Of a stretch of 64,000 nt of DNA, positions 4,645 through 59,652 are shown in pieces. Under the pieces are notes generated by a model. That model made no database searches. It saw nothing but the letters and a program-made list of their open reading frames with translations, and was not told the DNA's origin. The stretch spans positions 1,426,001 to 1,490,000 of the forward strand of contig OY282430.1 in the NCBI GenBank assembly GCA_958296025.1, written 5' to 3'. Position 1 is the stretch's first letter; the number at the start of each line of letters is the position of its first letter. A program made the translations under genes and the position numbers. The DNA comes from an uncultured Pseudomonadales bacterium. GTDB lineage: Bacteria > Pseudomonadota > Gammaproteobacteria > Pseudomonadales > Azotimanducaceae.

Positions 4645-5433
4645 ATCGGAACCATACTTCGGATCTGCCGCTAAGGCAATCTAGCGCAGCTAACCGGAAA
4701 CCATCTGGAGCGCTACGACTGCTTGGTGCCGGATTCCTGAGTGGTGACAGCCTTGGGCGACAGTCGAGAAGTTGCGCCTACCCACCGGAAGGGGCTGCTG
4801 TCGCATGGAGTCAATTACGGACGAATGCCTTGGCAAAACCAATGCCGAAGACGCGGGCAGCGCCATGACGAATCAAATAGCAAGCAATGCGCCGCGCATC
4901 CCTTTGCGCGGCCGCCCTGTCGCCTGGCGTAAAAGGGGGTTGGCGAATGCGGTCTAGGAAGAGCTGGTGGTCCATGAATGGGCATATAGGGAGTAGGGCG
5001 ACGCTCTTCAACATCGACCATCCATGGGAAACCACAGCCCGCCGTTCGGAACCAAACCTACGCTCAAAGAAGCACCAGACCTGAAGTGGCCGTTAGTCGC
5101 CTTGCCAACACCCATGAAGACCGGCAAGTTGGACCATTGCGCCCAGCGCTCCCTTATTCCCGCCGCATGCGGTCGCAGGCTGCTTAGGGTGTCGCCAGTA
5201 GGCCACAATTTCCTCTATTATTTCAATCAGTTAAGAAAAAACTTTGTCCGCCGGTTCCGAGGTGTTAAGGTTCACCCGAAACGGCGAGGCGCAAAGCGTC
5301 ATCGCCCGGTCGGCGTTACCGAAGGCACTGAGCGACAGAGGACGGGCGGGCAAGTGAGGCTGTGTTGCAGGCTATCCGATTGGCTGTTGGATCAGGTGCG
5401 GGAACGACCACACCAAGCCAAAAAGAGCGCACA
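4645..5433. other. Stretch without a recognisable gene
   Basis: About 790 bp between the chimeric ATPase remnant and the C5 methyltransferase. Only short overlapping frames in several registers are present and none has a motif or a convincing ribosome site. No tRNA cloverleaf, tandem repeat or terminator hairpin was recognised. It is probably the decayed left edge of the defence island. Confidence 0.5.
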
Positions 5434-6471
5434 GTGATCAAAGCCATTGACTTCTGCTGTGGCGCGGGCGGCCTAACACGCGGCCTGCTTGACGCAGGCA
5501 TCTCTGTTGTTGCAGGGGTGGACAACGACAAACGCCTCCGCAAGACCTACGAACACAACAACAGGCCAAGCCGTTTTATTGCCGAAAACATTGCCGATGT
5601 TCGCATCAACGAACTCCGGGCCGAACTAGGCGTCCAGTCGACTGACACGATATTGTACGCCGCATGCACGCCGTGTCAGCCCTTCTCCACCCTCAATGCA
5701 GCCAAGAGCGACGACGGCAAAAAATCGCTGTTGCTGGAATTCGCTAGGATCGTCGCCCAGTGCCCACCCGACTTCATCATCGTGGAGAACGTTCCCGGCC
5801 TGCACAACGCCATCGGTCAAAATATCTATCAGCAGTTTATGTTCGTATTGAAGAAAAACGGCTTCTTGGCTGAATCGGATCTCTTGGATGCAAAACACTT
5901 TGGCGTTCCCCAGACCCGCAAGCGCTTCATTCTCATAGCCTCTAAACATGGACAGCCTCGACTCCCGGCACCAACGACTAGGGAAAACCCAACCACGGTG
6001 AGAGAATGCATTGCAAAGTATCCTCCTCTAGCCGCTGGCGAAGAATCAACGAAATTTCCCAATCATGCCTCGCGGAAGCTGCCACCGCATCATAGACGTA
6101 TCGTTAAAGCCATCCCCTTGGATGGAGGAAGCAGAAATGATGTGCCCGACACATCAATTCTTCTCAAATGCCACCAAAGACATCCCAAAGCGCACAAGGA
6201 TGTATTCGGCCGCATGGCTTGGAACGAACCAAGCCCCACACTGACCTGTCGCTGCACTGATGTTTATTGCGGTCGCTTCATACACCCGGAACAACACCGC
6301 GGCATTTCACTACGGGAGGCCGCTGCACTGCAGACTTTTAGGGACAATTACGAATTTTTCGGTAAATCGTTCCTAGAAAAGTCCGGGCAGATTGGCAACG
6401 CCGTTCCCGTCCAGCTAGCTAGAGAGCTTGGAGCCGTCGCTATCCGGTTCCTGCGGGACTTTAGCCGTTAG
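5434..6471 (+). CDS. DNA (cytosine-5)-methyltransferase, Dcm family
   Basis: From the GTG at 5434 this is a 345-residue m5C methyltransferase with all the main motifs in order. These are motif I AIDFCCGAGGLTRG, which binds AdoMet; motif IV ACTPCQPFS with the catalytic Cys of PCQ at about residue 81; motif VI VENVPG; motif VIII QTRKRFILIAS; motif IX RCTDVYCGRFIHPEQHR and LREAAALQTF; and motif X GQIGNAVPV. The recognition sequence cannot be read. An alternative GTG at 5362 adds 24 residues, but these lack family similarity and the domain normally begins just before motif I. Only 14 bp separate it from the GHKL-nuclease gene, so the two form one unit, probably restriction-modification. The pair is richer in A+T than its surroundings. 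Confidence 0.9.
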   Translation: MIKAIDFCCGAGGLTRGLLDAGISVVAGVDNDKRLRKTYEHNNRPSRFIAENIADVRINELRAELGVQSTDTILYAACTPCQPFSTLNAAKSDDGKKSLLLEFARIVAQCPPDFIIVENVPGLHNAIGQNIYQQFMFVLKKNGFLAESDLLDAKHFGVPQTRKRFILIASKHGQPRLPAPTTRENPTTVRECIAKYPPLAAGEESTKFPNHASRKLPPHHRRIVKAIPLDGGSRNDVPDTSILLKCHQRHPKAHKDVFGRMAWNEPSPTLTCRCTDVYCGRFIHPEQHRGISLREAAALQTFRDNYEFFGKSFLEKSGQIGNAVPVQLARELGAVAIRFLRDFSR

Positions 6472-6485
6472 CTACTGAGGCAGCC

Positions 6486-8408
6486 ATGTCCACCAAAGAA
6501 CCATTCGGACTAGACTTCGACATAGCTACGATTAAACATCTCGGCTTGCAGATGTATTCCACCCTGCCTCCTGTTATTGGCGAATTGGTTGCCAATGCCT
6601 GGGATGCAAACGCTACCAAAGTGATGATTGCAATACCAGAAACGGCAATAGATGAACGGACGTCCGAGATCGTCATCTGCGACGACGGCTTGGGCATGCT
6701 GGACATTGATATACGCGAAAAATACCTCATAGTCGGTCGAGACCGCCGAGAAAAAGAAGGATCGGATGAAACGGCAGCACCATATCGTCGTAAGCTCATG
6801 GGGCGGAAGGGCATTGGCAAATTCTCCGCATTTGGTATCGCTAAGGAAATTGAGATAGAAAGCATAAAGGAGGGGGAGACCAGCCATTTCATCATGAACT
6901 ACGACAGGATGCTGGAAAGTGCGCATCGCCGTCATGTTGAGTTCCCTTCGCTACCCCCAAGCAAAACGATCTCAAAGGGGACAAAAGTGACACTTAAGCG
7001 GATCACCAAATACAAGACTCGAAGCATTTCCTTGAAATTGCTTCGCAGGGGATTGGCGAGACGCTTCTCAGTCATCGCTTCGCAAAACGATTTTCAGGTA
7101 GTCGTTAATGGTAGCCCTATTTCCTTGGATGAGCGCGACATGCACCGGCTGCTTGACAAGGATAGGGAGGGCCAACCTTATCTTTGGACATTCCAAGACG
7201 AGGAAATTGCCCCTGCAACCGGGTGGACGGTCTCCGGTTGGATTGGCGCTTTGAGCCGAACGACCTCGGATCTCGACGGTATAGATCGCGGCATCTCCAT
7301 CATGGCGCGTGGCAAGCTTGTTCAGGAGCCATTTTTATTCAATGCCGTAGTTGGGCAGCAATATGCGCTTTCCTATATTGTTGGCGAGCTTCACGCTGAG
7401 TTTGTTGACGAAGCTGAGGACACCGTTGGCACGAATCGAAATGTCTTGGTGTGGGACACTGATGCCAACATGGACCTTATGGCGTGGGGCAAGCAGCAAG
7501 TGAACCGGATTGCGCGCGAATGGGCAGAAAAGCGTAGCAAAGACAATCAAGACCGATTGGACAACAACCAGTTATATCAGGACTTTAGAGTGCGCGCGAC
7601 CGAAAGTGGCAATAAGCGAGCCTTGGATCTTGCCGACAAGCTCGTGCGCCAAGCGATCACCAAAAACCCGACCGCTGAAGTAGGCGAAATCGAGCCGATA
7701 ATCAAGACATCCCTAGATTTCTTGGAATTTGACGCTTTTTGGGAGATTACCAAAGACTTGGCGGAATCGGGATTGGAAGATATAGGGACGATTTTTGATT
7801 TGTTCAGAGAGTGGGAAATCGTTGAGGCGAAGGAGATGTCCCGCGTTACTGAGGGGAGAATAGCGACCATAGAGAAGCTACAGCGCCTCATTGATACAGA
7901 CGCGTTGGAGGTTCCCACTCTGCATAACTTCCTCAAGGAGTTTCCTTGGGTTATAGATCCTCGCTGGACATTGGTAGATGACGAGATTAGGTACAGCGAT
8001 ATTCTAAGGGGGAAGTTTCCTGAAGCGGACGATCTGCCAGATAGGGACAGACGGATCGACTTTCTGTGCGTTAGGGAGAGTACCAATTTGGTCGTGGTCG
8101 AGATAAAGCGCCCCAACGCTAGAGCTTCGCACAGGGAGCTCGATCAGATTGAAGAATATGTTTCGTTCATGAGAGACCATATACAGAACGCAACTGATCC
8201 TGAAATGTCATATCAGGAGGTGGTGGGGTATCTGCTTTGCGGGGACTTGGTTAATACTTGGAGGGTCAGGCAAAAGAAGAAAATCTTGGAGCAGTCGAAA
8301 ATATATGTAAGAAGATATGTGGAACTTCTCGACATGGTGACGAGAATGCACCGAGATTTTATCGAGCGGTATGATCAACTAAAAAGGCGCGGACAGGGCA
8401 ACACCTAG
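6486..8408 (+). CDS. GHKL ATPase fused to a C-terminal PD-(D/E)XK nuclease-like domain
   Basis: The 640-residue protein has an N-terminal HSP90/MutL-type (GHKL) ATP-binding domain. Its N box is ELVANAWDANAT (residues 33-44), G1 is CDDGLGM (65-71) and G2 is GRKGIGKFSAFGIA (106-119). The middle is largely helical. The C-terminal part (about 470-620) has a PD-(D/E)XK pattern: RIDFLCV (D525), VVVEIKRP (E539, K541) and a downstream RELDQIEEY with Q554. The Q in that position and the EIKRP motif resemble the Shedu/DUF4263 nuclease fold. The ATG follows a GAGG ribosome site and a 14-bp gap after the C5 methyltransferase. GHKL-containing restriction enzymes of the HgiDII/BbrUII type accompany C5 methyltransferases, so a restriction role is the leading inference. 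Cleavage and specificity are unproven. Confidence 0.8.
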   Translation: MSTKEPFGLDFDIATIKHLGLQMYSTLPPVIGELVANAWDANATKVMIAIPETAIDERTSEIVICDDGLGMLDIDIREKYLIVGRDRREKEGSDETAAPYRRKLMGRKGIGKFSAFGIAKEIEIESIKEGETSHFIMNYDRMLESAHRRHVEFPSLPPSKTISKGTKVTLKRITKYKTRSISLKLLRRGLARRFSVIASQNDFQVVVNGSPISLDERDMHRLLDKDREGQPYLWTFQDEEIAPATGWTVSGWIGALSRTTSDLDGIDRGISIMARGKLVQEPFLFNAVVGQQYALSYIVGELHAEFVDEAEDTVGTNRNVLVWDTDANMDLMAWGKQQVNRIAREWAEKRSKDNQDRLDNNQLYQDFRVRATESGNKRALDLADKLVRQAITKNPTAEVGEIEPIIKTSLDFLEFDAFWEITKDLAESGLEDIGTIFDLFREWEIVEAKEMSRVTEGRIATIEKLQRLIDTDALEVPTLHNFLKEFPWVIDPRWTLVDDEIRYSDILRGKFPEADDLPDRDRRIDFLCVRESTNLVVVEIKRPNARASHRELDQIEEYVSFMRDHIQNATDPEMSYQEVVGYLLCGDLVNTWRVRQKKKILEQSKIYVRRYVELLDMVTRMHRDFIERYDQLKRRGQGNT

Positions 8409-8431: not shown

Positions 8432-11400
8432 TCATACCCGAAACACCTTCATCACTTCATCCCCTAGATGGTTGATGACCTTCACCGCGATACGGCCCGA
8501 TTTCGGCTTCTCAAAGGGGCGGGAGGTGTCGCTGTGGAGGGTGGCCCAAGCGTCGGGGTTGATTTCGGCCTTTAGGGTGGTCTTCAAGGATTTGTAGGGG
8601 TCGGCGGCGCCTAGGAAGTAGGCGTGGCGGACGAAGAAGCTCTCTTCGTTGTAGTCCGTGTCGATGAACCAGCAGGCGATGCCTTCGGGGCCGTCGCTGC
8701 GGATTTCGCCGGTGTTGGGGTGGAAGACGTCCACGCCGTTGACTTTAACTTGAATCTGGCCGCGGTTCGCGCTGTCCTGTTCTACCGGCAGGATGTCGAT
8801 GTCCGGTTCGCCGAAGATGACGAACAGGTTGCCCTTGCCGGTGTTCTTGAGGTCCTCGGCCATGTGCAGGTCGGCATTCATGCGCGCCTTGAGGACGGGG
8901 ACGCGGCCCAGCTTGCTGAGTTCCGATGCGTGGGCCTCGTAGTTGAAGGCGCAGGCGATCAGCAGGTCGAAGCCGGCGTCCGCGGCCTCCCGGGCGGCGA
9001 CCACCAAGTCGGGACGGGTGACGGTGCCGAACTCCGGGCCGATGAAGATGCCGGCCCGCTGTTCGGTTCCAAACCGCTCGCCTCCCGCGTGTTCGCCAAC
9101 AGCCTTCCCGCCGTGGGTCTGCCCGCTTCCATTGGCGTAGCGGCCCTCCGCGCACACCAGCTCGCCCTGCCAAGGGACGATGGACGAGAACGCGATCTTG
9201 TCCGCCTTGTGCGCCTGCTGCACACCGGCGGTGCGCAGGTTCTCCAGAATGGTGGCGGTGAAATCCTGCTGCCGGTTGTAGCCGAGGCGGGTGTCCGCCA
9301 CCCGGTCGATCAGTTCGTCGTTCTCATCCACGCCGAGGATGCGGTGCGGCGACAGGCTCTCCACGGTGAAGGGGCCGGCCACGCGCACCTTCTTGCCGTC
9401 TTGATAGGGTTTGTCGTACAGGTATTCGTAGTCCGCCTTGGCGGCAATGGAGGCGTCGATCTCCTGCTGGCGGGCGATGCGCTGCCGCCACCACTCCCCA
9501 TGCACGGCGGTTGGTGTCTGCTCCCAAGGATCGGCGGGACGGGGCGGAAGCGCATCCAGGGTGTAACTGCGCTTGAGGGTCGCATTGAGGTCGCGCATAA
9601 GGCGCTGCACTTTGCTGTCGTCGCGGGGCTTCCCTGTCCGCAACGCGGCATCCGGATGATTGCGTCCTTCGCTTGCTGTATCGGCGGATCCTCCGGGGGG
9701 GCCATCCAACTCGGTGCGCAGTTTTGCGAACAACTTCTGCGCCGCTGGATTCCACGGCGTTTCGGCATGGCGGGGGATTTCCCATTCCTCCCAGTTAGAC
9801 TGCATTGTCTCGTTGAGCTTCTGGCGCAGGGGTTCCAACTCTTGCTGGTGCTTCTCCCAGATGACGTCGATTTCCGCGTTGTTGGCGATGGACTTCAGGG
9901 TGACGTGCGGCACCCGCTCACAGACGAAGCCTTGGCGGATGTCCCCTTGGGCGGGTGCCTCGGAGGGTGCCTTGCGGGAGAGCTCCGCTTCCTTGGCCTG
10001 GCCTTCGGGCGAATCCGCCAGCAGATAGTAGGGATAGCGGGCGCCCATGACGCGGGCGCGAGCCAAGGCGAGGGCCACGCGGCTGGTGTCGATGGTGATC
10101 CAGCGGCGGCCCCATTGCTCAGCGACGTAGGCGGTGGTTCCTGAGCCGCAGGTGGGGTCTAGGACGAGGTCGCCGGGGTCGGTGGTCATGAGAAGACAAC
10201 GTGCTATTACTTGAGTGGAGGTTTGAACAACGTAGCGTTTGGGATCTGATCGTGACTGAACTCCCCATGTATCATCCCAGAAGGAAGAAATAGGGAACAC
10301 AGGGAAGTCATCCAGATATCTTATGTACGCTATGGATATTCCCTCACTGATAATACGATTGCTTCGTGTCAATCGATCAATTCCAACTTGGTTAGTTTTC
10401 CAAAAGCCAGTTCTTGGATGTCGAGTTGTTCCTTGGAAAATATAGGGAAACCGACTTGTTTCCCCGCCGCTCTGCGAAACCAACGGACTCGGTCGGAAAT
10501 ATTTGGTGCCAACAGGAATTTTACCTCTTTCCGTCAACGTTTTTCTCGTCATTCGCTCGCCCGAAGGCAGCTCAACACTATTGTACTTTGTACCTCCTTC
10601 AGCCCCTACAGCTTTTGATTTGTACAGTTTTCTGAATTTAACCATTGCCCGATTCTTCGCATACCACAACAAAAAGTCGAATGTTGAGGATAGAAGTTCA
10701 CTCGTCTGGCTGCTAGTCGTCACAAACGGAATGATTGAACATGCATTGTCCTCCCCAAACACCTCATCCATCACCGCCCGCACCCGATGCACATTCTCAT
10801 CCCCAATCTGCACAAACACCGAGCCGCTGTCCGTCAGCAAGTCCCTTGCCACCGTCAGCCGGTCGCGCAGATAGGTCAGGTACGAGTGAATCCCGTCCCG
10901 CCAAGTGTCCCGAAACGCCTTAACCTGCTCCGGTTCCCGGGTGATGTGCTCGGCCTTGCCGTCCTTCACGTCCCGACTGGTGGTGGACCACTGAAAGTTG
11001 GAGTTGAACTTGATGCCGTAGGGCGGGTCGATGTAGATGCACTGCACCTTGCCGCGCAGCCCCTCCCGCTCCGCTAAGGACGCCATCACCTGCAGGCTGT
11101 CCCCCAGAATCATCCGGTTCGACCAGTTGGCGTCATGCTGATAGAACTCCGCACGGGCGTCGTCGCTCGGCAGGCCATTGAAGTCCGCGAACAGATCCAC
11201 CTGACCAACCGCCTCGCCAGCGGCCTCCGCATCCGCCTCCCTGCTGCGCCGCAACAAATCATCGATCAGCACCTTCGGATGTAGCTTTTCCTGAATGAAC
11301 AAGGGCGGCGCCGGCACCACCAAGTCCGACCAGTCCTGCTCGTCCTTGCCGCGCCAAACCAACTGCGGGTCCAAGTCTCGATTGCGCCGCTCATAAGCCA

Positions 11401-11527
11401 CCGGCACGGGACTCCGCGCATCGCTCCCCAACAACGCCTGATACTCCGCCGTGGGAATGTTCCTGCGCGACGCCTCCGCATGGGTCAGCGTCGAAACTTG
11501 CTTGGACTGTTTGGGCCTGCGGGGCAT
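8432..11527 (-). CDS. mod: Type III restriction-modification DNA methyltransferase (Mod)
   Basis: This 1,031-residue N6-adenine methyltransferase has the type III (beta class) motif order. The catalytic motif IV is IYIDPPYGIKF with DPPY at 167-170, and the AdoMet motif I follows as VLDPTCGSGTTAYVAE at about 455-470. The N-terminus has the conserved NIPTAEYQALL and LDPQLVWRGKDEQDW segments typical of this Mod group. The C-terminal third is long and specific to this group. Two in-frame Gly/Ser-rich stretches, near nt 9620-9700 and 9050-9150, look like inserted loops. It is the last gene of the minus-strand cluster that begins with res at 18668, and sits 12 bp downstream of the DUF1828 gene. It modifies the host recognition site and, with Res, forms the type III enzyme. 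Confidence 0.92.
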   Translation of the reverse strand: MPRRPKQSKQVSTLTHAEASRRNIPTAEYQALLGSDARSPVPVAYERRNRDLDPQLVWRGKDEQDWSDLVVPAPPLFIQEKLHPKVLIDDLLRRSREADAEAAGEAVGQVDLFADFNGLPSDDARAEFYQHDANWSNRMILGDSLQVMASLAEREGLRGKVQCIYIDPPYGIKFNSNFQWSTTSRDVKDGKAEHITREPEQVKAFRDTWRDGIHSYLTYLRDRLTVARDLLTDSGSVFVQIGDENVHRVRAVMDEVFGEDNACSIIPFVTTSSQTSELLSSTFDFLLWYAKNRAMVKFRKLYKSKAVGAEGGTKYNSVELPSGERMTRKTLTERGKIPVGTKYFRPSPLVSQSGGETSRFPYIFQGTTRHPRTGFWKTNQVGIDRLTRSNRIISEGISIAYIRYLDDFPVFPISSFWDDTWGVQSRSDPKRYVVQTSTQVIARCLLMTTDPGDLVLDPTCGSGTTAYVAEQWGRRWITIDTSRVALALARARVMGARYPYYLLADSPEGQAKEAELSRKAPSEAPAQGDIRQGFVCERVPHVTLKSIANNAEIDVIWEKHQQELEPLRQKLNETMQSNWEEWEIPRHAETPWNPAAQKLFAKLRTELDGPPGGSADTASEGRNHPDAALRTGKPRDDSKVQRLMRDLNATLKRSYTLDALPPRPADPWEQTPTAVHGEWWRQRIARQQEIDASIAAKADYEYLYDKPYQDGKKVRVAGPFTVESLSPHRILGVDENDELIDRVADTRLGYNRQQDFTATILENLRTAGVQQAHKADKIAFSSIVPWQGELVCAEGRYANGSGQTHGGKAVGEHAGGERFGTEQRAGIFIGPEFGTVTRPDLVVAAREAADAGFDLLIACAFNYEAHASELSKLGRVPVLKARMNADLHMAEDLKNTGKGNLFVIFGEPDIDILPVEQDSANRGQIQVKVNGVDVFHPNTGEIRSDGPEGIACWFIDTDYNEESFFVRHAYFLGAADPYKSLKTTLKAEINPDAWATLHSDTSRPFEKPKSGRIAVKVINHLGDEVMKVFRV

Positions 11528-11539
11528 CGTCCTTACTCG

Positions 11540-11974
11540 TCAAGCAGTGTCAGCGAAGGCGTGTTTGGCTTCCGGCCGAGGCAAAGCAGCCAACTGACAG
11601 ATTCCAGTCAGCCCCTGCCCGAATTGAAATGCTGCTTTCAGCAGTTGCTCTGGGGCAGTGTCCAAGCAGAACGCGCCACCCTCCCATTGCAGCCCCCTTT
11701 CAGCCATGATGCGTTCAAACTGCATTTTACCAGCACCTTCTATGAGAACATCCACATCGTGCTCGTAGCTGAGGTGCATGAGCGTATGGCCAAGGTCAGA
11801 CAGGCGCAACCCACCTGATTCCGTCGCCAAGATGTAGATCGGATAACTGTCCCCATCGGGAAACCGAAATGGCGTCTGGAGCATCAACGCCCCATCTGGC
11901 CGGTGGTCAATCCTTACCTGTTCGCAAAGATTCTCGCGCAACAACTGCCGCAGTGCGTCAGGATCAATGACCAT
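11540..11974 (-). CDS. DUF1828 domain protein
   Basis: From the ATG at 11974 the product is about 144 residues; a GTG at 11995 would add seven. The pattern PFRFPDGDSYPIYILATE followed by GGLRLSDLGHTLMHL matches the DUF1828 signature as I know it. This domain is found in small proteins linked to mobile and defence loci. No catalytic motif is obvious and no function is assigned. It lies between the nucleotidyltransferase and mod, only 12 bp before mod, so it is almost certainly co-transcribed with the R-M genes. A role as an accessory or anti-restriction/regulatory protein is possible but not shown. Confidence 0.7.
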   Translation of the reverse strand: MVIDPDALRQLLRENLCEQVRIDHRPDGALMLQTPFRFPDGDSYPIYILATESGGLRLSDLGHTLMHLSYEHDVDVLIEGAGKMQFERIMAERGLQWEGGAFCLDTAPEQLLKAAFQFGQGLTGICQLAALPRPEAKHAFADTA

Positions 11975-12028
11975 AGCCGTGCTTGCGCTGCCCACTAGCC
12001 GGCGGCTTGCGGAGCACTTGACTGGTTT

Positions 12029-12319
12029 CTAGACATGGACCGCCTCCTGTTCCACATAGGGACGCAGCTCCGGGCGCAACGCTTTGTCGGTGACCAGATC
12101 GACTGGGCGACCTATCAGGTCTTCCAAGTAGAACTGAGTGCCGAAGTAATTCTTCGAGGTGGTCGGCCCGTTAAAACGGACCAAAATATCGACATCGCTG
12201 TCTGCGGACGCTTGGTTGCGGGCAACGGAACCAAACAAAGCGAGAGCGGCCACTCCAAACCGATTGGAAAGGGTTGGTTGGTGTTCCTGAAGCAGATTCA
12301 GAGCTTCATCCTTAGTCAT
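12029..12319 (-). CDS. MNT-type minimal nucleotidyltransferase
   Basis: The 96-residue protein has the minimal nucleotidyltransferase core: LALFGSVARNQA followed by SDSDVDILVRF, giving the GS-x-AR and D-x-D metal-binding motifs, and DLIGRPVDLVTDKAL near the end. Proteins of this kind (MntA) usually act as antitoxins that adenylylate a partner HEPN ribonuclease encoded next door. No HEPN gene is visible on either side; the neighbours are a DUF1828 gene and the TOPRIM-like gene. It may be an orphan or may act within this cluster. It is in the same orientation as the R-M cluster. Confidence 0.85.
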   Translation of the reverse strand: MTKDEALNLLQEHQPTLSNRFGVAALALFGSVARNQASADSDVDILVRFNGPTTSKNYFGTQFYLEDLIGRPVDLVTDKALRPELRPYVEQEAVHV

Positions 12320-12403: not shown

Positions 12404-13267
12404 TCAAGCCACGTCGGCCGCTTCGGGCGGCGCATTCCAGGGCGTGGCCTCAAGGAATTCAACAAGCGCTTGGCTTGCGGCTGACTCCTCGAACTGCACA
12501 TCGGGAAGGCCGTTGCGTGCGATCATGGTGTCCAAGGGATTCCCGGGATGCCTGAACTGCCCAGCCGTCGTGATAATGGCTTTAAGCCGCGTCGCGTCAT
12601 TGCGCGAGGCTTTGTCATCGGACTTCCTGTTGTCGTCTATGAAACGCAGCGCATTGGCATATCTATCTGGCCATGCAGACTTCACCATTGGCTCCAGGTG
12701 ATCCTCAAGGGTGCCTGTTTCCTGAGCACCCTTATGAAATATGTACACGCCAACGGGAATGCTATTGGTCTTGGTCCATTGGCCGTGTTCAGTGTTTACC
12801 AAACCGCCAAAATATGTGCCGTACGCTTTCCGAAACTTTTCCAGCGTTGCACCTACTCCTTCAGCATTCGCGTCGAATAAGAAGGCGGCGCCGTGTTCAG
12901 TCACGTCGAACTCGCCCTCGCTCATTAGAGCGCCCACATGCTGGATCAGCTTAAGTGTCGCTTTTGCCTGTGTCTTGCCTCCCGCACGAATCAACAAGAA
13001 CATTCTATCCTTCACAACGCTTTGCACGGCGGACTCGAAGTGTGGCGAGGGTTGATAGGAGGAGGCTCGGAGCGCAAAATCCTCAAAAGGCCGCTCAGCA
13101 AGGCGTGTGGCTATCAAGCCCTTTGGCAGTGACTTGCCGGCCCCGAAGGGGGAAGGCAAGTCCCTAATGGAGCTTTGCAATCGCTCGTAGCCACCGAGTG
13201 CGCTCAAGCTCCGCTCCACGAACACAACATCAGAAGTGCCTTCGCAGAATACCAATACCGCCTTCAC
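12404..13267 (-). CDS. TOPRIM/DUF3226-like protein, partner of the ParB-AAA ATPase
   Basis: The GTG at 13267 overlaps the stop of the ATPase gene (GTGA, 4-bp overlap), which points to translational coupling and gives 287 residues. The N-terminus VLVFCEGTSDVVFVERSL carries the TOPRIM-type acidic motif (E9, D13). A second motif, AAFLFDANAEGVGATLEKF, with D132 and a degenerate D-x-N, and GTLEDHLEPM at about 185-194 fit the DUF3226/DUF4435-like TOPRIM arrangement. TOPRIM domains paired with ABC-type ATPases form nuclease effectors in systems such as PARIS, Gabija and other OLD-like pairs. Nuclease activity is inferred; the changed D-x-D could alter catalysis. Extending the frame upstream to 13375 only reads through the neighbouring gene. 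Confidence 0.72.
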   Translation of the reverse strand: MKAVLVFCEGTSDVVFVERSLSALGGYERLQSSIRDLPSPFGAGKSLPKGLIATRLAERPFEDFALRASSYQPSPHFESAVQSVVKDRMFLLIRAGGKTQAKATLKLIQHVGALMSEGEFDVTEHGAAFLFDANAEGVGATLEKFRKAYGTYFGGLVNTEHGQWTKTNSIPVGVYIFHKGAQETGTLEDHLEPMVKSAWPDRYANALRFIDDNRKSDDKASRNDATRLKAIITTAGQFRHPGNPLDTMIARNGLPDVQFEESAASQALVEFLEATPWNAPPEAADVA

Positions 13268-15450
13268 TGAATCCCCCTTACGTCGAAGTCCGCCGCTTCG
13301 TGCAGCAAAAGGAGCTTTTCGCCCCCAAAGCGCCGGACGCTGGCCCCCTTTTCGCTGCGACGGATCGCATAGCAAGCGATGTCGTCAGTTTTATAGTTGT
13401 TCACTATGAAGGCGTCCAGCGCCTCTTTGCTGTGCGTTGTGAGGAAGACCTGCACATTAAGCTCGGCAGCGAGTTCTTGAACCGACCGCGTAAAGGGGAC
13501 AAGAAGATCCCTGTGGATTGCAGTCTCGAACTCGTCAATGAGCAGTACGCCGCCCCGGGCCCCGGCAAACAACGACCCAATCTCGAACACTCTTCGCAGA
13601 CCCTCGCCAAAAGCAGACAGATCGACGCCGCCATCGAAGTCAAGGTGGCTAACCAGGAAGCGATTGAATCGGTCTGCTAACTCAATGTTCGTGATGTCGG
13701 CGTCGATATGACTCCTGATGAACTCGATCACCTTTCCCTTTGTCCCTGCTTCCAAACTGGCTTTGTTGGATTCAGCAAGCGCATCGGAGCGGTTGGTCCA
13801 GAACGGGCTACTGAAAGCGGACCGACACAGCCAATGGCGCCCGTCAAAGTTGGTGCGCCACGGACGGTCGCCGAACAGCGCTACGTCGGTGGCCTGGACC
13901 TCACCGCCGTAGCTGGACTGGATGGCGATCTTGGCAAGGAATGTTGTTTGATCTTCGATGTCCTCATCCGGTTCGGATATGCGCTGCATCTTAAGGCTAG
14001 CGGAATTGTCGGGCACGTCATCAAAACAACCCGATATCTGGATGGCGGGCTGAATTTGCTGGATGAGCCAGAACGGATCGAGCTCGCCCTCGATTCGTCC
14101 TCGCCAACGGTTTACGTCCACAAGCGCTCGCTCGTCGTTCTGACGGGTAAGCAAATAGATGGCTTCCAGCAGAGAGGTTTTGCCGGCATTGTTGACGCCG
14201 GCGATCAGATTAACGCGGCTAAGATCGTCGAGGACTAGCCCGCTTATACCGCGGTATTTCCGAACGCTGATGGAGGAGAACTGGGATTTGGTCAACTCGT
14301 TGAACGGCTCCCAAGGCAGTCGCGCAACAGAGCCGGGCGGACGCCGCTTGCGCGCCAGCGCCAAGCCCTGAAGTTTGCCTATCAGTTGCTCCACCCGGTC
14401 GAGGTCGCCCGGATTGAGCTCGCCAACCTTGCTGCCCAATTTTTGAACACCGCTATCGCAGGATCCGAATGCGCGGTCAATTTCATTTTTTACCAAAAGG
14501 CTGCTGGAAAGAGTGGCCTCCTGCAGGCTGCGCGTTTCATCTAGACGCTTAACCGCGGCTGGATCGTCAATCATTTTGGCGAGTTCCCGAACATGGCCGA
14601 CCGTGGTGATTACAGGGCTGTATTCCGTTTGTGCGTCGGGATTGTCGCTGTCGCCATCATCGTCGGGTTCGACCTCTTTTGATATCCAAGAGAACAACCG
14701 ATTGAGGTTCGCTTGGTCGCCGGCGATGTACTCCGCGTCGTCCCAATTGAGCCAGTCGCGCATGGTTGGCCTAGCAAGAACTTCCCTAAACAAATTGTAC
14801 TGGTCCGACTGGAACTGGTCGCCATAGTCGCTCTCCTTGTATTTCTCCACCAAAGTCAGAGTTTTCATCGACAGATTGAACTCGCGCTTGGTTACGCCAA
14901 GGGCGCGGCACACGGCATCCGAGTCTTTATCGAAATGCTGCAGCAGTTCCTTCATCGCCATAGCCCGACTGACTGCCGGCCAGCGGCGCTTGCCGGTGAT
15001 GTGGTGCAGCCCCATCATCACCGTGTGCTGCCGTTTGTCGGCATCGTGGATAACGACCGGCATCCGGGTGAACAATGCCGGGTCTAGACGCCCTAGGTCG
15101 ATAGACTCCGCTTCGTGGCGAGCCTGTAAATGCTTCAGCGTGGCCACCCGCCGATTGCCTTCAACGACGATGTATCGGCCCTTGTTTGGTGCCTGCACAA
15201 GGATGGGGTCGATATCCAGCCAACCATTCTCCTTAATGCTGGCGATAAGGTCCCTAACCTGTTCCTGAGATCGACCCAAGATGAAGGTCGCCGTTCGTCG
15301 CTGCACGTCCTTGTTGAATACTTTCTCTGGCCCTATGGGCTGGTAGTCGGCTTTGTCCACAAACCGAAAGTTGTTCGGGTCGAGATAAAGCCGGGCAAGG
15401 GATACCGTCTGCCGCCTGCCGCGTACCTTTTCAGCCAGTTCTTCACTCAT
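13264..15450 (-). CDS. ParB-like domain fused to an OLD-like AAA/ABC ATPase
   Basis: This 728-residue fusion has a ParB/Srx-like domain at about residues 15-130 with IVVEGNRRVATLKHLQA (94-110), preceded by SIKENGWLDIDPILVQAP. A helical middle region (about 150-380) includes a patch resembling a helix-turn-helix, CRALGVTKREFNLSMK. The C-terminal ABC-type ATPase (about 390-728) has Walker A AGVNNAGKTSLLEAI (417-431), a signature-like SAFGEGLRR (612-620), Walker B GVLLIDEFE (634-642) and the switch His in VFLTTHSKEALD. AAA_15/OLD-like ATPases of this type drive TOPRIM effectors in phage defence. The ribosome site AGGTGA precedes the ATG. It is followed by the overlapping TOPRIM-like gene and preceded, 113 bp away, by res. 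Confidence 0.82.
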   Translation of the reverse strand: MSEELAEKVRGRRQTVSLARLYLDPNNFRFVDKADYQPIGPEKVFNKDVQRRTATFILGRSQEQVRDLIASIKENGWLDIDPILVQAPNKGRYIVVEGNRRVATLKHLQARHEAESIDLGRLDPALFTRMPVVIHDADKRQHTVMMGLHHITGKRRWPAVSRAMAMKELLQHFDKDSDAVCRALGVTKREFNLSMKTLTLVEKYKESDYGDQFQSDQYNLFREVLARPTMRDWLNWDDAEYIAGDQANLNRLFSWISKEVEPDDDGDSDNPDAQTEYSPVITTVGHVRELAKMIDDPAAVKRLDETRSLQEATLSSSLLVKNEIDRAFGSCDSGVQKLGSKVGELNPGDLDRVEQLIGKLQGLALARKRRPPGSVARLPWEPFNELTKSQFSSISVRKYRGISGLVLDDLSRVNLIAGVNNAGKTSLLEAIYLLTRQNDERALVDVNRWRGRIEGELDPFWLIQQIQPAIQISGCFDDVPDNSASLKMQRISEPDEDIEDQTTFLAKIAIQSSYGGEVQATDVALFGDRPWRTNFDGRHWLCRSAFSSPFWTNRSDALAESNKASLEAGTKGKVIEFIRSHIDADITNIELADRFNRFLVSHLDFDGGVDLSAFGEGLRRVFEIGSLFAGARGGVLLIDEFETAIHRDLLVPFTRSVQELAAELNVQVFLTTHSKEALDAFIVNNYKTDDIACYAIRRSEKGASVRRFGGEKLLLLHEAADFDVRGIQ

Positions 15451-15563: not shown

Positions 15564-18500
15564 TCATCTCTTCCCGCGTGAGCCTTCGCCCACTTGCACC
15601 ATCCCGTCGAACTGCGCCCCAATCTCCGCCTCCAAGCCCCCCTCCAGTTCATAAACGTCCCGCAGTTCGGCGAAGGCCCAGCGGCCGTAGGCGCCTAGGT
15701 GGTTGACTGCGGGAATCCAGTAGCGGTCCATGGTCGCCTTCTTGTCCTTGGCGTCTTCGCGGCGGTAGCCCTTTATTTCGACGACTAGGCGCAGCAGGTC
15801 GTCCTCGCCGCGGCCGTCCTCCACCAGCACGATGAAGTCCGGCAAGTAGATGCGGGATTCGGTGCCGAAGCGATAGGGTACTTGCAGGCCCAAGCCTTGG
15901 TTCTTGACGTAGGCCCGCACTGAGGGATGGGCTTCCAGAACGCGGCAGAACTCCGCCTCCCAATCGCTGTCGCAGATCGCCCAGTTGACATGGCAGCGGT
16001 TCGGGGCGGTTTGCCAGCGGGTTTTCTTGGACGTGGCGAAGCGGACGTTGGCGGTGCTGCCGCTGGGGTTGTAGGGGTCCAGCACGGCGGTGATGGGGCG
16101 TTCGCCCTCGTGCCGGGCGACGATGCCTTGGGTGATCCGCTCGCAGGCCAGGTCGGCAAGCTCCTGATACATCAGTTGCGCGGGATAGGTGTCGCCCTTG
16201 CATTGCAGATGGTGGTTCAGCCATTGGCGGGTGATCTGCTTGAGTTGGCCGAACAGGTGCAGCTTGGGCGCTTCGTTCGGGTCCCGCCACTTGGTTTCCA
16301 GAAGCCGCTTGGTCAGGTGGAACAGCAGGGTGGAGGGGCGCAGGTTCTTGGTATGCACTAAGTTGAGGTTAACGCCTTCGCCGATGATGCCTTGGTTGCG
16401 GGTGATGGAGGGGCCGACAATTTTCGGCGTCAGCACTAGGGTGGCGTCCTCGTTGAAGGTGGCGGCAAGGCGCTCCTCCGGCAGTTCCACGCGGTAGCCC
16501 TGCACCCGCGGAAAGCGGATTTCGCAGGCGTTCCGCTCCGGGGAGACGGCCCGCACCTGCACAGTCTCCCGGGGCGGCTGCGGCGGGATTGAGACGGGTT
16601 CGGCGGTGAAGTCGAAGGGGATGCCCAGCACATCGGCGTACTCCACGTCGAACAGGCCATGCTCGTTCAGGTCGTAGGACTGGCGGCGCAGCGCCCGGCC
16701 CACTACCTGCTCGCACAGCAGTTGGGTACCGAAGGCGCGCACCCCCAGCACATGGGTGACGGTGCTGGCGTCCCAGCCCTCGGTCAGCATGGAGACGGAC
16801 ACCACGCAGCGGGTGGCGCCGCCCAGCCGCCCCTCCTTGCCCACGGTGTTCATCACCTCCCGCAGCAGGGCTTGGTCGGAGAGGTTTTCCGCCTGCCGAC
16901 GGTCGCCGGTGCGCACCACGATTTCCCGTCGAAAGCGATCTATCTCATCGGCGGCCAAGGTGCGGAATTTCCTGTCCAAGGCTTCGCCGGACTCCAGTTG
17001 CTCGCTGTCGATCAGCAGGGTGTTGGGGCGGGGCAGGGGGTTGCCGCCGTCATTGAAGTTGCGAAACAGCGGCAGGCGCCCGTTCTCCAATGCTTTGGCG
17101 CCGTTCTCGCCCTGCCGGTGGAAGCCGGAGATGTAGTCATAGACCAGCTTGGAGGTGGAGGTGTTGTTGCACACCACGATGAAGCAGGGCGGCACTGCTA
17201 TGCCCGCCTGCTGCCAGAGATCGAAGGTTGTGACGTAGTGGCCGTACAGGGCCTCCAAGGCGGTTTGCAGTTCGACGGGGATGCTCAGGGGATCCAGGCT
17301 GGGCGCCTTGGCCGCCCCCTTGCCGTCGGGGTCGGCGGCGGCGCGGGCGCGGCCCCGCCCCGCCTTGGGCATCTTCTTGCCGATGTGCTCCCAGAGGTTG
17401 CGAAAGCGGGGCATGTCCTCGCCGGGGATGTTGTCCGCCACCGGCACCCTAGGCAGCTTGACGATGCCGCATTCGATGGCGTCCATCAGGGAGAAATCGC
17501 TCATCGTCCAGGGGAACAGGGTGCCCTCCGCATAGCCGGAGCCGCGCAGGAAGAAGGGCGTGGCGGAAAGATCGATCACCCGGCTTAGACCCAGCTTGCG
17601 CCCCACGGCCTCCAGCCCGGAAATCCACACGCGGGCCGCCTCTTGGTTCTTCTTCGCCTCGGCCCGGTCTTCGCCCTTGAGGGCGCCTTCCTCGTCCTCG
17701 TCCGGGGGCCGCTCCCGGTAGCAGTGGTGGGCCTCGTCGTTCAGGGCCATGATGTTCCTCATGCCCAACAATTCCGGCATCACCCGCTTGAGCATTTGGC
17801 CTTCGCTTTCCTGGGTTCGCAGGTCCGGCCCCCGCCCGCGCAGCAGGGCGCGCCCACCCTTGGAAAGCTCCAGCACCTCGCGGCGCATGAAGGCGTGGTA
17901 GTTGGTGATGCGGATCTTCGCCCGCTCCAAGTCGCCCAACATGTCTTGGGGGACCAGTTCCCGGCTGGCGTAGTAGCTGTCTGGATCGTTGGGTTGCAAA
18001 ACCCGCAGCCGGTCGCGGATGGTGATGCCCGGCGTCACCACCAGAAAGCCCCGGGTGAAGCGGCGGCTGCCGGGATGGCGCACCGCGTTGACGGTCTGCC
18101 AAGCGATCAACATGGCCATGACGGTGGTTTTGCCGGCGCCCGTGGCCAGCTTCAGGGCCAGCCGAGCGAGGTCGGGATTGGCTTGGTCGTTGGCTCCCTG
18201 CAAGTGGTCTAGATAGCGTTTGCCCTTGCGCCCCAAATTAGGCGCCGCCTCGGTCAGCCAGATGACCGCTTCCGCGGCCTCCACTTGGCAGAAGAAGGGC
18301 CGGATGCCGCTGAATTGATGTTGCCGCCAATGCCGCAGCAGGCGGGCGGTTTCCGGAGTCACCCGCCATTGGTTGGGGTCCGGCAGGTTTCGCCAAGCCT
18401 CCACTTCCAAGCGGAGGCCGTTGATGATGGGCGTTAGGTCATATTGCTGGCTGGCGGTGCCGAGATCCTCCGCCGCCTTGTCGAAGACCAGCTGGCGCTG

Positions 18501-18668
18501 AGTGCGCCCGCGCTTCTTGGGTTGGGGAATGGGCGAGACGAAATCGACGGCGCGGCGGGCGGCGATGCGCTTGTTGGTGGGCTGGCCGTCCCCGTCCAGC
18601 TCCCAGTGCTGCGCTGGGGGCTCGTATGGAGAATTGAGGATGGGCTGCTCGAAGAAGGCGCTGCTCAT
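15564..18668 (-). CDS. res: Type III restriction endonuclease Res subunit
   Basis: The 1,034-residue protein combines an SF2 helicase with a nuclease domain. Motif I is LATGAGKTTVMAML at about residue 175, motif II is LNDEAHHCY near 310, motif III is LSATPFF near 366, and the second RecA domain contains TEGWDASTVTHVLG and QVVGRALRR. The C-terminus has a PD-(D/E)XK motif: YLPDFIVLVEDG (about 940) then LRLVVEIKGYRRED. This is the architecture of type III Res subunits, which translocate on DNA and cut with Mod. It is the first gene of the minus-strand cluster and starts 40 bp after the dihydroorotase stop, so it could be read from the pyrC promoter. Four cargo genes separate it from mod. Confidence 0.93.
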   Translation of the reverse strand: MSSAFFEQPILNSPYEPPAQHWELDGDGQPTNKRIAARRAVDFVSPIPQPKKRGRTQRQLVFDKAAEDLGTASQQYDLTPIINGLRLEVEAWRNLPDPNQWRVTPETARLLRHWRQHQFSGIRPFFCQVEAAEAVIWLTEAAPNLGRKGKRYLDHLQGANDQANPDLARLALKLATGAGKTTVMAMLIAWQTVNAVRHPGSRRFTRGFLVVTPGITIRDRLRVLQPNDPDSYYASRELVPQDMLGDLERAKIRITNYHAFMRREVLELSKGGRALLRGRGPDLRTQESEGQMLKRVMPELLGMRNIMALNDEAHHCYRERPPDEDEEGALKGEDRAEAKKNQEAARVWISGLEAVGRKLGLSRVIDLSATPFFLRGSGYAEGTLFPWTMSDFSLMDAIECGIVKLPRVPVADNIPGEDMPRFRNLWEHIGKKMPKAGRGRARAAADPDGKGAAKAPSLDPLSIPVELQTALEALYGHYVTTFDLWQQAGIAVPPCFIVVCNNTSTSKLVYDYISGFHRQGENGAKALENGRLPLFRNFNDGGNPLPRPNTLLIDSEQLESGEALDRKFRTLAADEIDRFRREIVVRTGDRRQAENLSDQALLREVMNTVGKEGRLGGATRCVVSVSMLTEGWDASTVTHVLGVRAFGTQLLCEQVVGRALRRQSYDLNEHGLFDVEYADVLGIPFDFTAEPVSIPPQPPRETVQVRAVSPERNACEIRFPRVQGYRVELPEERLAATFNEDATLVLTPKIVGPSITRNQGIIGEGVNLNLVHTKNLRPSTLLFHLTKRLLETKWRDPNEAPKLHLFGQLKQITRQWLNHHLQCKGDTYPAQLMYQELADLACERITQGIVARHEGERPITAVLDPYNPSGSTANVRFATSKKTRWQTAPNRCHVNWAICDSDWEAEFCRVLEAHPSVRAYVKNQGLGLQVPYRFGTESRIYLPDFIVLVEDGRGEDDLLRLVVEIKGYRREDAKDKKATMDRYWIPAVNHLGAYGRWAFAELRDVYELEGGLEAEIGAQFDGMVQVGEGSRGKR

Positions 18669-53606: not shown

Positions 53607-54358
53607 ATGGATCAAAGCTGCCCTCCGAAAAACGGCTCCCAAACCACAGTTGCCTTGGCTGACCTAGGCCTTCACGAGCGTCGCGGCTTTTCGGACATTA
53701 AACGTTTACTATCACGTTATGTCGAGGCATACCCAGATGATAGATCGGCTATAGTAAAGCTAGGGCAAGCTCATTTGAGCAAGCGAAGGCGCTGGCAAGA
53801 ATGTATCTGGGAGCAAATAGCGAAGCGGAAGTTTTGAACGGAGACCCAGGCTATCGTATAGCAGACGGGCTTATTCGGGCTCATTTAGGCTTGCATGAAT
53901 TGGATGATGCTGTTTCTTTAGCAACTCAATAGATTGAGGAAGAAGTGCATCCCAACTTCCGCATTGATTTAGCGGAGACGCTTACTTGCTATTTCTCTTT
54001 GCATAAGCGGCAAATGGGAAGGGCCTATCATTTCGCGGCCGAAGCTTACAATATGCAGGCGCGGTTCGACAGTCGGCAACCGAACCCGGCGGAGCAACCG
54101 ATGCTGCTCGGTTGGGTTTTGGGCGGCACCATGCCTAGTCAGCTTACCGGATGTGTTGGCGAATCCTGGGTTTGGATTGCCCACCAGTCAACGTTGGCCT
54201 TCTATCATTTGATAGATGGATTGACGGCCAAGCAAAGTCGGCCTAGCATTTCCGATCATGCCGAAGCCAGATTCCGTTCGCCTCAAGCCGCCGATGGACG
54301 GCCCGCACATTCGTCGCCTGCGCATGCAGATGGGCCTGACCCAGCAGCAGTTCGCTGA
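53607..54358 (+). pseudogene. Broken gene of unknown function (frameshift and nonsense)
   Basis: The start MDQSCPPKNGSQTTVALADL reads in one frame to about 53770. The coding pattern then continues in another frame as SFEQAKALARMYLGANSEAE and ADGLIRAHLGLHELDDAVS, meets TAG at 53930-53932, and resumes as IEEEVHPNFRIDLAETLTCY and onward through WIAHQSTLAFYHLIDGLTA. One indel and one stop therefore break a protein of about 215 residues. The helical, Leu/Ala-rich character suggests TPR-like repeats, but no family is recognised. The last 100 bp of the frame overlap the start of the helicase gene and are probably not original coding sequence. Confidence 0.6.
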
Positions 54359-59139: not shown

Positions 59140-59592
59140 ATGGGCGCCATTCACATCAACGCCACCATCCGCAATCCCGCAGACCGCAATAGAAGTTGGC
59201 AGGGCCGATTTCTGGTGGATACCGGCGCCACCGATTCGGTGGTGCCCAAGTGCCACTTGGAAGCCATCGGCTTGGAGCCGGAGGAACGGCGGCGGTACGA
59301 GCTAGCTGATGGCAGCGAAGTCGAAATGGGAATTGCAGGGGCTCGAATCGAGTTTATGGACACATTCACGCACGGCCTTGTCTTGTTTGGAGATGCGAGA
59401 GCCGAGCCCATTATCGGGGTAACCGCCTTGGAATCCGTGGGCGTTGAAATCGATCCGCGTAATCAGCGCCTGAAGCGGCTGCCGGCGGTGCGGCTGAAGG
59501 CATCCGCACAACGTGACGTTGGCACCGAACAACTCTTAGACAAAAGTGTTAGTATTATTTTTGAAGCCAATGGTTCACAATGCGGACACTAG
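59140..59592 (+). CDS. Retropepsin-like (clan AA) aspartic protease
   Basis: The 150-residue protein contains the active-site motif FLVDTGATDSVVP (D27-T-G-A) followed by YELADGSEVEMGIAG and AEPIIGVTALESVGVEID, the single-domain pattern of retropepsin-like bacterial proteases that act as dimers. It starts 43 bp after the DUF2235 stop and ends 61 bp before the SIR2-APAZ gene. The last 35 residues are not part of the protease core. The target is unknown. Its place directly upstream of the Argonaute pair raises the possibility of a linked role. Confidence 0.83.
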   Translation: MGAIHINATIRNPADRNRSWQGRFLVDTGATDSVVPKCHLEAIGLEPEERRRYELADGSEVEMGIAGARIEFMDTFTHGLVLFGDARAEPIIGVTALESVGVEIDPRNQRLKRLPAVRLKASAQRDVGTEQLLDKSVSIIFEANGSQCGH

Positions 59593-59652
59593 TTAATCCT
59601 ATTGTGATAGTACCCGCTAGTAGGAAGCCCTATTTCCTGGGATTTATTGGCG

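Follow-up and report, generated by a model that had tools for sequence, protein, structure and literature searches.

For defence systems that join an ATPase to a TOPRIM enzyme, it is often the trigger that is left to explain. PARIS has its ABC ATPase and its TOPRIM as separate proteins, AriA and AriB, the latter a DUF4435 protein. Gabija, of OLD class 2 (GajA with the helicase GajB), unites OLD-type ATPase and TOPRIM functions, and PtuA is the ATPase of Septu and of a retron effector. Menshen (NsnA, NsnB, NsnC) is described in a review as having a DUF262 protein, which is ParB/Srx-like, together with a predicted OLD nuclease (PMC10952713). ParB-type heads related to the one treated here occur in PD-Lambda-5 A and in gp98 of phage Wphi. 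PADLOC-DB 2.0.0 also lists a candidate pair, PDC-M38A/B, and the screen behind the PDC entries is reportedly a 2024 preprint by Payne et al. PDCs remain unvalidated according to PMC12988326. In the literature searched, with preprints outside its scope, we found no paper naming PDC-M38 or DUF3226, and no experiments on the PDC-M38 family.

The window, meaning the whole 64,000-nucleotide stretch of DNA that was analysed, contains a pair of this kind (Table 1). The original prediction had described a 728-residue fusion of a ParB-like part to an OLD-type ATPase, its stop overlapping by 4 bp the start of a 287-residue TOPRIM-type protein, and had proposed the two as a candidate defence system that could be a distinct variant. 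The open reading frames and their overlap agree with this description at the same positions. The novelty does not stand, since the pair is already catalogued in PADLOC-DB as PDC-M38A/B, ParB part included: the M38A model, of 715 positions, matches residues 10–726 at E 4e-228, the M38B model matches the partner at E 5e-23, and the architecture is the same. What goes beyond the catalogue is the near-obligate pairing, the match of the head to chromosomal ParB, the apparently swappable heads, the variable res–mod slot and a position in what looks like the defence slot of P2-like prophages.

Table 1. Features of the M38 locus and the surrounding slot, in window coordinates
Feature	Position	Strand	Support or remark
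M38A-like gene, ParB–HTH head fused to OLD/PtuA-type ABC ATPase, 728 aa (ATG at 15450, stop at 13264)	13264..15450	-	PDLC04607
ParB N-terminal (NTP-binding type) and helix-turn-helix part, residues 12–206	14833..15417	-	TIGR00180, hhalign
Invariant GNRR of the ParB part, M38A residues 98–101
Helical linker, residues 207–380	14311..14832	-
ABC ATPase domain, residues 390–728	13267..14283	-	AAA_21 and Foldseek
Walker A (GVNNAGKT), residues 418–425	14176..14199	-
Walker B (GVLLIDEFE), residues 634–642	13525..13551	-
Overlap (GTGA) between the M38A stop and the M38B start	13264..13267	-
M38B-like TOPRIM-type gene, 287 aa (GTG at 13267, end at 12404)	12404..13267	-	PDC-M38B, AlphaFold2 model, fold match
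TOPRIM motif 1 (CEGTSD), residues 8–13	13229..13246	-	Family H12 is S here
TOPRIM motif 2 (FLFDANAEG), residues 129–137	12857..12883	-	Family D-x-D is D-x-N here
Conserved GTLED motif of M38B, residues 185–189	12701..12715	-
BPTD_3080 family restriction endonuclease (res), upstream slot edge	15564..18668	-	NF046055, 1318 bits (cut-off 800)
Type III-like DNA methyltransferase (mod), downstream slot edge	8432..11527	-	N6_N4_Mtase E 5e-29; MTase_III PDLC03632, 1436 bits
MntA-like nucleotidyltransferase, further slot cargo	12029..12319	-	MntA_antitoxin E 2e-12, below cut-off
DUF1828 protein, recurrent slot cargo	11540..11995	-	Also in L022, L098 and L099

AriA is among the fold and PADLOC matches of M38A, but M38A carries a ParB–HTH head, and the partner is not of the DUF4435/AriB type, which led us to reject membership of PARIS; in Pfam, searched to E 1, M38B did not hit DUF4435. 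Comparing the M38B profile with those of RloB and DUF4435 yielded no match and says nothing, because the positive control, RloB against DUF4435, yielded none either. GajA is also among the fold matches. Gabija was nevertheless set aside: the TOPRIM is a separate open reading frame here, the genes downstream encode the nucleotidyltransferase and the DUF1828 protein, and the helicase GajB is not among the identified neighbours. PtuA provides the top Foldseek matches of the ATPase, but M38B is TOPRIM-type, neither an HNH protein nor PtuB, and the identified flanks (res, mod, DUF1828 and nucleotidyltransferase genes) include no reverse transcriptase, so Septu and an Ec78-type retron effector were rejected as well. 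The NsnB model of Menshen matches the M38A ATPase at E 4e-11, the sole Menshen name among PADLOC matches at E up to 10 in a library whose NsnA and NsnC content is unconfirmed; M38 differs in being two genes with the head fused. Phage gp98 matches PDC-M38A positions 58–342 (E 9e-25) but has 401 residues, and the match stops before the ATPase; gp96, encoded by the next gene, hits no PADLOC model at E 1e-5. The entire M38A ATPase domain matches AbiL (AbiLi, E 1e-34), whereas the AbiLi model, with its 340 positions, does not include a ParB part. Across PADLOC at E up to 10, M38B matched PDC-M38B models only, and hits of the head were confined to the models of PDC-M38A and PD-Lambda-5.

The ParB assignment of the head was borne out by profiles. 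It matches TIGR00180 at E 7e-9 and the ParB_N family of Pfam at E 4e-5, in both cases below the curated cut-off, and in profile-profile comparison (hhalign) residues 61–204 matched 24 chromosomal ParB proteins with a probability of 94.6% (E 6e-8 for that single comparison). The protein from residue 120 on, taken alone, gave 72% (E 3e-5). By these profiles, chromosomal ParB is matched through both the N-domain and the helix-turn-helix of the head, and there is moderate support for the latter being a ParB-like helix-turn-helix. The GxRR-type motif of the ParB/Srx superfamily is present as GNRR in 45/45 aligned M38A proteins (44 of the 52 long M38A frames plus the window, with L021, L023, L038, L053, L060, L065, L075 and L080 omitted by hand), a count that describes headed forms only because L075 and L080, with other heads, are among those omitted. 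ENxxR, which is part of the ParB CTP site, is missing from the same 45 proteins, its glutamate position being an invariant histidine (H150). Gating by CTP through the ParB part, as originally proposed, is thus somewhat weakened, with GNRR in its favour and H150 against it. Perfect palindromes and 10-base words 5' of M38A, possible binding sites for the head, were common to near relatives alone among 21 upstream regions.

The ATPase domain matches AAA_21 at E 5.5e-18. Both Walker motifs are present as described earlier, and G418, K424, D639, E640, E642 and H646 are identical in 45/45 aligned M38A proteins. Its fold matches are PtuA at the top, Rad50, AriA, OLD and GajA, and all 50 matches listed for the M38A model (pTM 0.52) among solved structures are ATPases. 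We built a tree of ATPase parts of at least 300 aa whose match reached the profile end, which admitted the window and 64 of the 71 loci and left aside L053, L056, L061, L079 (where the match starts at profile position 154), L083, L084 and L085. The ParB part is absent from 11 of its 65 tips, dispersed over the tree, and 10 Fitch changes are needed on this one FastTree topology, midpoint-rooted and free of support values. For this count the split loci L017, L059 and L067 were scored as ParB-bearing, and L063 as unknown because its contig starts within the gene. The head of L080 carries TPR repeats (E 1e-15), that of L075 an AAA domain (ATPase_2, E 1e-6, below cut-off), and some ParB-less relatives retain the helical linker in part. 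On this comparison the M38A heads look exchangeable, coming and going across relatives.

TOPRIM proteins carry a glutamate where strand 1 ends and a D-x-D where a later strand ends. In the alignment of long-form M38B (the window and 42 of the 45 proteins with 230 aa or more, short partners excluded), these are E9 and D132, each 43/43, and D134, 42/43; G10, G185, L187 and Q237 are likewise present in 43/43. The TOPRIM-type motifs of the original prediction are borne out across the family, and its degenerate D-x-N is real, which the window alone possesses; at position 12, H in 40/43, the window has S. Because these conserved motif positions are altered (D134N, H12S), the window M38B may be impaired or inactive, and an active nuclease is not to be presumed for this copy. 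The AlphaFold2 model (pLDDT 92) has a predicted TOPRIM-like fold, as anticipated. Its best PDB match is PH0156 (2p62, E 2e-7), an uncharacterised protein; known Toprim structures match weakly (OLD Toprim 6nk8, E 0.09), and sequence searches for a solved relative returned none that was convincing. The putative catalytic role of M38B rests on its motifs and on the similarity to PH0156.

The 71 loci came from a scan with two peptide patterns (ParB head and Walker B) that kept the best 80 of 113 relatives, and form a non-random sample that favours headed forms. Some of them are the same as loci from a separate genome search (L023 = L008; L030 = L009 = L098), others apparently so (L034/L010, L046/L012, L058/L013, L081/L014), and L036 and L038 are two contigs of one MAG. 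Counted frame by frame, an M38B match follows M38A in 67/71 loci, and the four other contigs stop within 41 bp. The pairing is far beyond chance and near-obligate, a conserved two-gene module. None of the three outcomes named at the start as refuting the original prediction was seen for the module: the pair is conserved, M38B has a predicted TOPRIM-like fold, and the head shows ParB homology. The frames overlap by at least 1 bp in 38/44 relatives, and by exactly 4 bp in 18, taking first possible starts from gene-picking that misses M38A or M38B under a longer antisense frame. Distances between ATPase parts correlate with those between M38B proteins (rho 0.64, 0/999 permutations as high, 52 pairs including the window), which shared inheritance alone would also explain. 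As a separate observation, some of the 67 M38B matches are fragments, L049 and L067 for example. No match was obtained in E. coli genomes by blastn, and 13 phage records matched partially, none spanning 80% of the query.

We consider it probable that the PDC-M38 pair is a self-contained two-gene anti-phage module, consisting of a DNA sensor, an ATPase switch and a TOPRIM effector. Beyond the computed domains, conserved residues, near-obligate pairing, changing heads, variable slot and prophage location, we infer the following course of DNA sensing, switching and nuclease activity, and also that the window copy still works. The exchangeable N-terminal sensor of M38A, here ParB-type with a helix-turn-helix, would read or load on invading DNA, either directly or via bound nucleotide. 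Sensing would alter how the OLD/PtuA-type ABC ATPase dimerises under ATP, and this switch would free or activate M38B, a TOPRIM-type enzyme that would cut nucleic acid and so halt either the phage or the cell it has infected. The pair is a widespread mobile module carried as cargo. In the window it sits within a type III-like restriction operon; elsewhere it adjoins genes of BREX or type III systems or housekeeping genes, and in prophage-like contigs it occupies the apparent P2 old/tin locus. Our neighbour scan took in 83 same-strand proteins with a length of 220 aa or more; they belong to 35 of the 52 loci in which the M38A frame is long. PglX was matched by three of them and PglZ by four. 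Among 10 neighbours in seven loci, seven are of housekeeping or transport type and one is unmatched; the remaining two, the AAA_21 ATPase of L018 and the DUF499-HEPN protein of L015, are defence-like. Because most of these 10 are housekeeping- or transport-type, location supports the proposed defence role in part of the loci only.

A different relation to restriction is conceivable, in which the pair, like PARIS, monitors host restriction or BREX and fires when an inhibitor such as Ocr blocks them. The pair does lie inside the mod–res operon in the window, type III mod genes adjoin it in L022, L030, L036 and L038, other relatives adjoin BREX-type genes, and the AriA fold match would fit. PARIS is described as detecting Ocr, and PARIS-like modules as recruited to BREX (PMC12839542). 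We nonetheless judge a guard function unlikely: there is no restriction gene among the scanned neighbours in three prophage-like contigs or in L016, L018, L023, L051 and L077, M38B does not match DUF4435 at E up to 1, and the ParB–HTH head would point to sensing of DNA, not protein. The pair might also be an accessory part of the type III-like enzyme, the head reading the Mod mark and M38B helping to cut unmodified DNA. Placement on the same strand between res and mod, seen in the window, L022 and L098, speaks for this. It is very unlikely, given that the slot varies across nine further places, mod coming straight after res in three (L096, L097, L102) and other cargo lying elsewhere, including a PD-T4-4-like pair in one, and that the window mod or res was matched in 4/71 loci only, in a single-sequence search over many short contigs. 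A type III subunit was rejected, since res runs directly into mod in those three places.

Compatible with the module reading for the family, yet bearing on the working state of the window copy, is decay: the family would be real and the window pair nonfunctional. Besides D134N and H12S, this is suggested by M38B being split or shortened in no fewer than eight relatives (L017, L019, L023, L035, L046, L049, L056 and L068), mostly beside an open M38A, and by the window nucleotidyltransferase, which is flanked by M38B and DUF1828 and not by a HEPN gene. Both window frames, however, are open at full length with the ATPase motifs intact and the overlap retained. M38A is split as well in L017, L059 and L067, and assembly errors are a possible source of the broken relatives. 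We regard decay as a doubtful but serious possibility. That the pair serves chromosome or plasmid maintenance through its ParB head, rather than defence, is highly improbable. TOPRIM proteins do occur in MksG-type systems too, but the pair is patchily present (3/390 genomes of the order and 6/398 of the phylum sample, the window's genome counted), it is found in viral contigs, a tblastn search of 72,556 plasmid records at E 1e-20 returned nothing, and its heads are variable.

Returning to the two-gene anti-phage module, a bolder form of it, which we put forward as speculation with little expectation that it holds, makes the M38 core a general ATPase–TOPRIM executioner with plug-in sensors. The ParB–HTH head would be a repurposed partition clamp; by loading on foreign DNA at particular sites or in particular states, it would license the separate TOPRIM effector, and TPR, AAA and other heads would serve other triggers. 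One core with a ParB–HTH, TPR, AAA or no recognisable head would amount to natural head swaps linking trigger to domain, and ParB-type DNA reading, part of the partition machinery, would, if this is true, be employed as an immune DNA sensor.

Three prophage-like contigs (L167, L168 and L174), a source of compact relatives for tests in E. coli, carry the pair between origin-nicking and portal genes. By gene order, this slot looks like the old/tin position of P2. According to a review, other anti-phage systems are encoded at the old locus of P2 (PMC10568477). In these contigs the pair looks to occupy a P2-like prophage defence slot.

The two genes lie exactly where the original prediction placed them, the 728-aa ParB-headed ATPase (M38A) and its 287-aa partner (M38B) sharing the GTGA at 13264-13267. 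The predicted fusion was likewise confirmed: the N-terminus of M38A matched TIGR00180 (E 7e-9) and Pfam ParB_N (E 4e-5), both under curated cut-offs, and its second half matched AAA_21/AAA_15 in Pfam. M38B gave a weak Pfam match to DUF3226 (E 4e-5, under cut-off). The decisive library match came from PADLOC-DB, where residues 10-726 of M38A matched PDC-M38A (E 4e-228) and M38B matched PDC-M38B (E 5e-23). Four further PDC-M38A models listed are just 362-383 positions long and cover the ATPase half, so headed and headless forms (with and without the ParB part) are already in the PADLOC catalogue. PDCs are described as putative candidates from a guilt-by-embedding screen, still unvalidated (PMC12988326). 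The name PDC-M38 was absent from papers in the literature searched.

Defence-type and large genes in the window
Feature	Position	Strand	Remark
C5 cytosine methylase + GHKL-ATPase restriction enzyme, BbrUII/HgiDII type	5362-8408	+	adjoins type III-like operon
Type III-like methyltransferase (mod)	8432-11527	-	one edge of slot
MntA-like nucleotidyltransferase antitoxin	12029-12319	-	flanked by M38B and DUF1828 gene
M38B	12404-13267	-	
M38A	13264-15450	-	
BPTD_3080 family restriction endonuclease (res)	15564-18668	-	other edge of slot
3728-aa ORF, leucine-rich repeats + Calx-beta domain	41047-52233	-	
SNF2-type helicase with NO VEIN C-terminal domain	54258-57824	+	best PADLOC match HmaA, E 1e-163
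SIR2-type protein, then short prokaryotic Argonaute	59647-62789	+	Aga_SIR2 E 1e-173, pAgo_I E 1e-190

When 84,980 species genomes were scanned with two peptide patterns derived from a seven-sequence alignment, 113 relatives were found, and the best 80 of these, representing 71 loci in several phyla, were retained. Frame-by-frame reading placed an M38B match after M38A in 67 of the 71 loci, which bears out the conservation of the pair across genomes; the remaining four (L037, L053, L065, L083) run out of contig within 41 bp. ParB and ATPase occupy one ORF in 50/71 loci and, from first possible starts, M38A and M38B overlap by at least 1 bp in 38 of 44 pairs and by exactly 4 bp in 18. Distances between ATPase parts correlate with M38B distances (rho 0.64, 52 pairs including the window; reached in 0/999 permutations), as shared descent alone would also give. 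The M38 module is real, conserved and already catalogued as a candidate. It is locally rare, occurring in 3/390 genomes of the order and 6/398 of a phylum-wide sample (E 1e-30; own genome counted in both).

Some partners are shorter (146-194 aa) and match just the ends of the M38B profile (L048, L054, L058, L071, L076, L077, L084, L085). At least eight relatives (L017, L019, L023, L035, L046, L049, L056, L068) have an M38B that is split or shortened at a place other than a contig end, and in three (L017, L059, L067) M38A is split; such broken copies fit a costly effector, and assembly error could explain part of them. The 15.4-kb L076 carries four consecutive M38A-like ATPases, each followed by a 191-194 aa gene, one of which belongs to the short-TOPRIM cluster. 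These may be ATPase and short-TOPRIM pairs repeated in tandem.

The M38A model (pLDDT 84.5, pTM 0.52, relative domain placement unsure) matched PtuA, Rad50, AriA, OLD and GajA. That of M38B (pLDDT 92, pTM 0.90) matched PH0156 (2p62, E 2e-7) and, weakly, retron Eco2 and the OLD Toprim domain 6nk8 (both E 0.09). Sequence searches gave no convincing solved relative of M38B: GMP reductase reached E 0.08 in one, and a second had a best E of 0.64, with PH0156 at 0.79. In TOPRIM domains a glutamate closes the first strand and D-x-D a later one; in the M38B model, E9 and D132-x-D134 are predicted to take these same places. The degenerate D-x-N flagged in the original prediction is real, position 134 being D in 42/43 sequences and N in the window alone. 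Position 12 is H in 40/43 and S in the window. Judged from these residues, the window M38B may be catalytically changed or dead.

In a profile-profile comparison (45 M38A against 24 chromosomal ParB), residues 61-204 of M38A matched ParB with a probability of 94.6% (E 6e-8), over the N-terminal domain as well as the helix-turn-helix; the part from residue 120 on, helix-turn-helix included, matched alone (72%, E 3e-5). In M38A, the linker and ATPase occupy the place of the ParB C-terminal part. GNRR is invariant (45/45), yet the equally invariant H150 (45/45) aligns to the glutamate of ENxxR, part of the ParB CTP site, which leaves CTP use by the head as a possibility. A related head (PDC-M38A positions 58-342, E 9e-25) occurs in gp98 of the P2-family phage Wphi (L161 96-2331), where it resembles those of M38A and PD-Lambda-5; the overlapping gp96 had no PADLOC match at E 1e-5. 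The window's own chromosome (G000:C1) also encodes a second M38A-like ATPase (3675481-3676560), a protein with a match to M38A's ParB part (3690354-3690836) and an RloB-family protein (2763573-2764112).

ParB-less tips (11/65) are scattered on the ATPase tree, with 10 changes by Fitch count on one FastTree topology without support values from a non-random sample. Since the first 150 positions of the head profile were unmatched in all six frames of 12 ParB-less loci, the absence of ParB there is not a mere frameshift. TPR repeats (E 1e-15) replace the head in L080 and an AAA domain (ATPase_2, E 1e-6, under cut-off) in L075; the N-terminal stretches of L071 and L082 had no Pfam match, and that of L071 (2850-3400) resembles EVE/PUA-type domains by eye. 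The natural reading is that the sensor is interchangeable and the ATPase-effector core fixed.

In the window, the M38 pair, the MntA-like gene and a DUF1828 gene all lie between res and mod on the minus strand. As a HEPN partner for the MntA-like gene, no minus-strand ORF of at least 80 aa was found between M38B and the DUF1828 gene. Across the order, the endonuclease turned up at 10 places in 9/390 genomes, and the nine other than the window were all fetched. There, mod directly follows res in L096, L097 and L102; L098 reads 181-aa ORF, DUF1828, M38A, M38B, mod; L099 holds DUF1828 together with small ORFs; other ORFs intervene in L100, L101 and L103; and L104 has a mod-like piece before res, with no mod after it within the fetched stretch. 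The cargo of L100 matches PDC-S13 (E 2e-113); that of L103 (7279-10505, minus strand) matches PD-T4-4 A (E 3e-94), PD-T4-4 B (E 4e-13) and the NsnB type of ATPase (E 7e-41). No match was found for the two L101 ORFs or for three of four other small slot ORFs scanned; the fourth is DUF1828-related. Outside this set, L022 reads res, DUF1828 pieces, M38A, M38B, mod. Because contents differ or are absent among relatives, the res-mod space is a slot of variable content that holds defence-type cargo, including the M38 pair.

Neighbours vary widely among M38 loci. Type III mods adjoin the pair in L022, L030, L036 and L038, and a scan of 83 neighbours in 35 loci gave three matches to PglX, presumably the three-member cluster of L029, L040 and L066, and four to PglZ. 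A further scan of ten proteins from seven loci found UvrB and polyphosphate kinase (L077), an ABC transporter (L023), a subtilase (L016), an acyl-CoA dehydrogenase (L051), a defence-like DUF499-HEPN protein (L015) and, in L018, a nucleotidyltransferase-transglutaminase protein, an ABC transporter and a defence-like AAA_21 ATPase; the L021 protein had no match. As these are mostly not restriction or defence genes, the pair seems not to need a restriction partner. The main rival reading, a PARIS-like guard model, is weakened by the loci whose scanned neighbours include no restriction gene. Most likely, judging from the domains and their relatives, the head would recognise DNA, or an infection state that is bound to DNA; the M38A ATPase would then rearrange in an ATP-dependent manner, and M38B would be released or activated to cut nucleic acid.

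A P2-like location is the best independent hint that the pair may act against phages on its own. Among 26 hits in viral contigs, 13 are full fusions, 12 of them with an M38B match next; the thirteenth contig ends at M38A. The M38B match of viral contig L163 is split in two. Flanking genes were scanned in four viral contigs: in L167, L168 and L174 an origin-nicking gene (phrog_91) stands on one side of the pair and a portal gene (phrog_68) on the other, a place which by P2 gene order we take to be the old/tin region, with a terminase gene past the portal gene in L167 and L168, where scanned; the single flanking protein scanned in L166 is of unknown function. According to a review, other anti-phage systems are encoded at the old locus of P2 (PMC10568477). 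For the M38 family, the ParB-HTH match, exchangeable heads, slot with empty relatives and P2-like location were undescribed in the literature found.

Elsewhere in the window, the GHKL-ATPase enzyme scored 351 bits where the family cut-off is 550, and the two ORFs after the SNF2-type helicase (57931-59097, 59140-59592) had no PADLOC match at E 1e-5. The SIR2 and short Argonaute genes are presumably a SPARSA-type defence pair.
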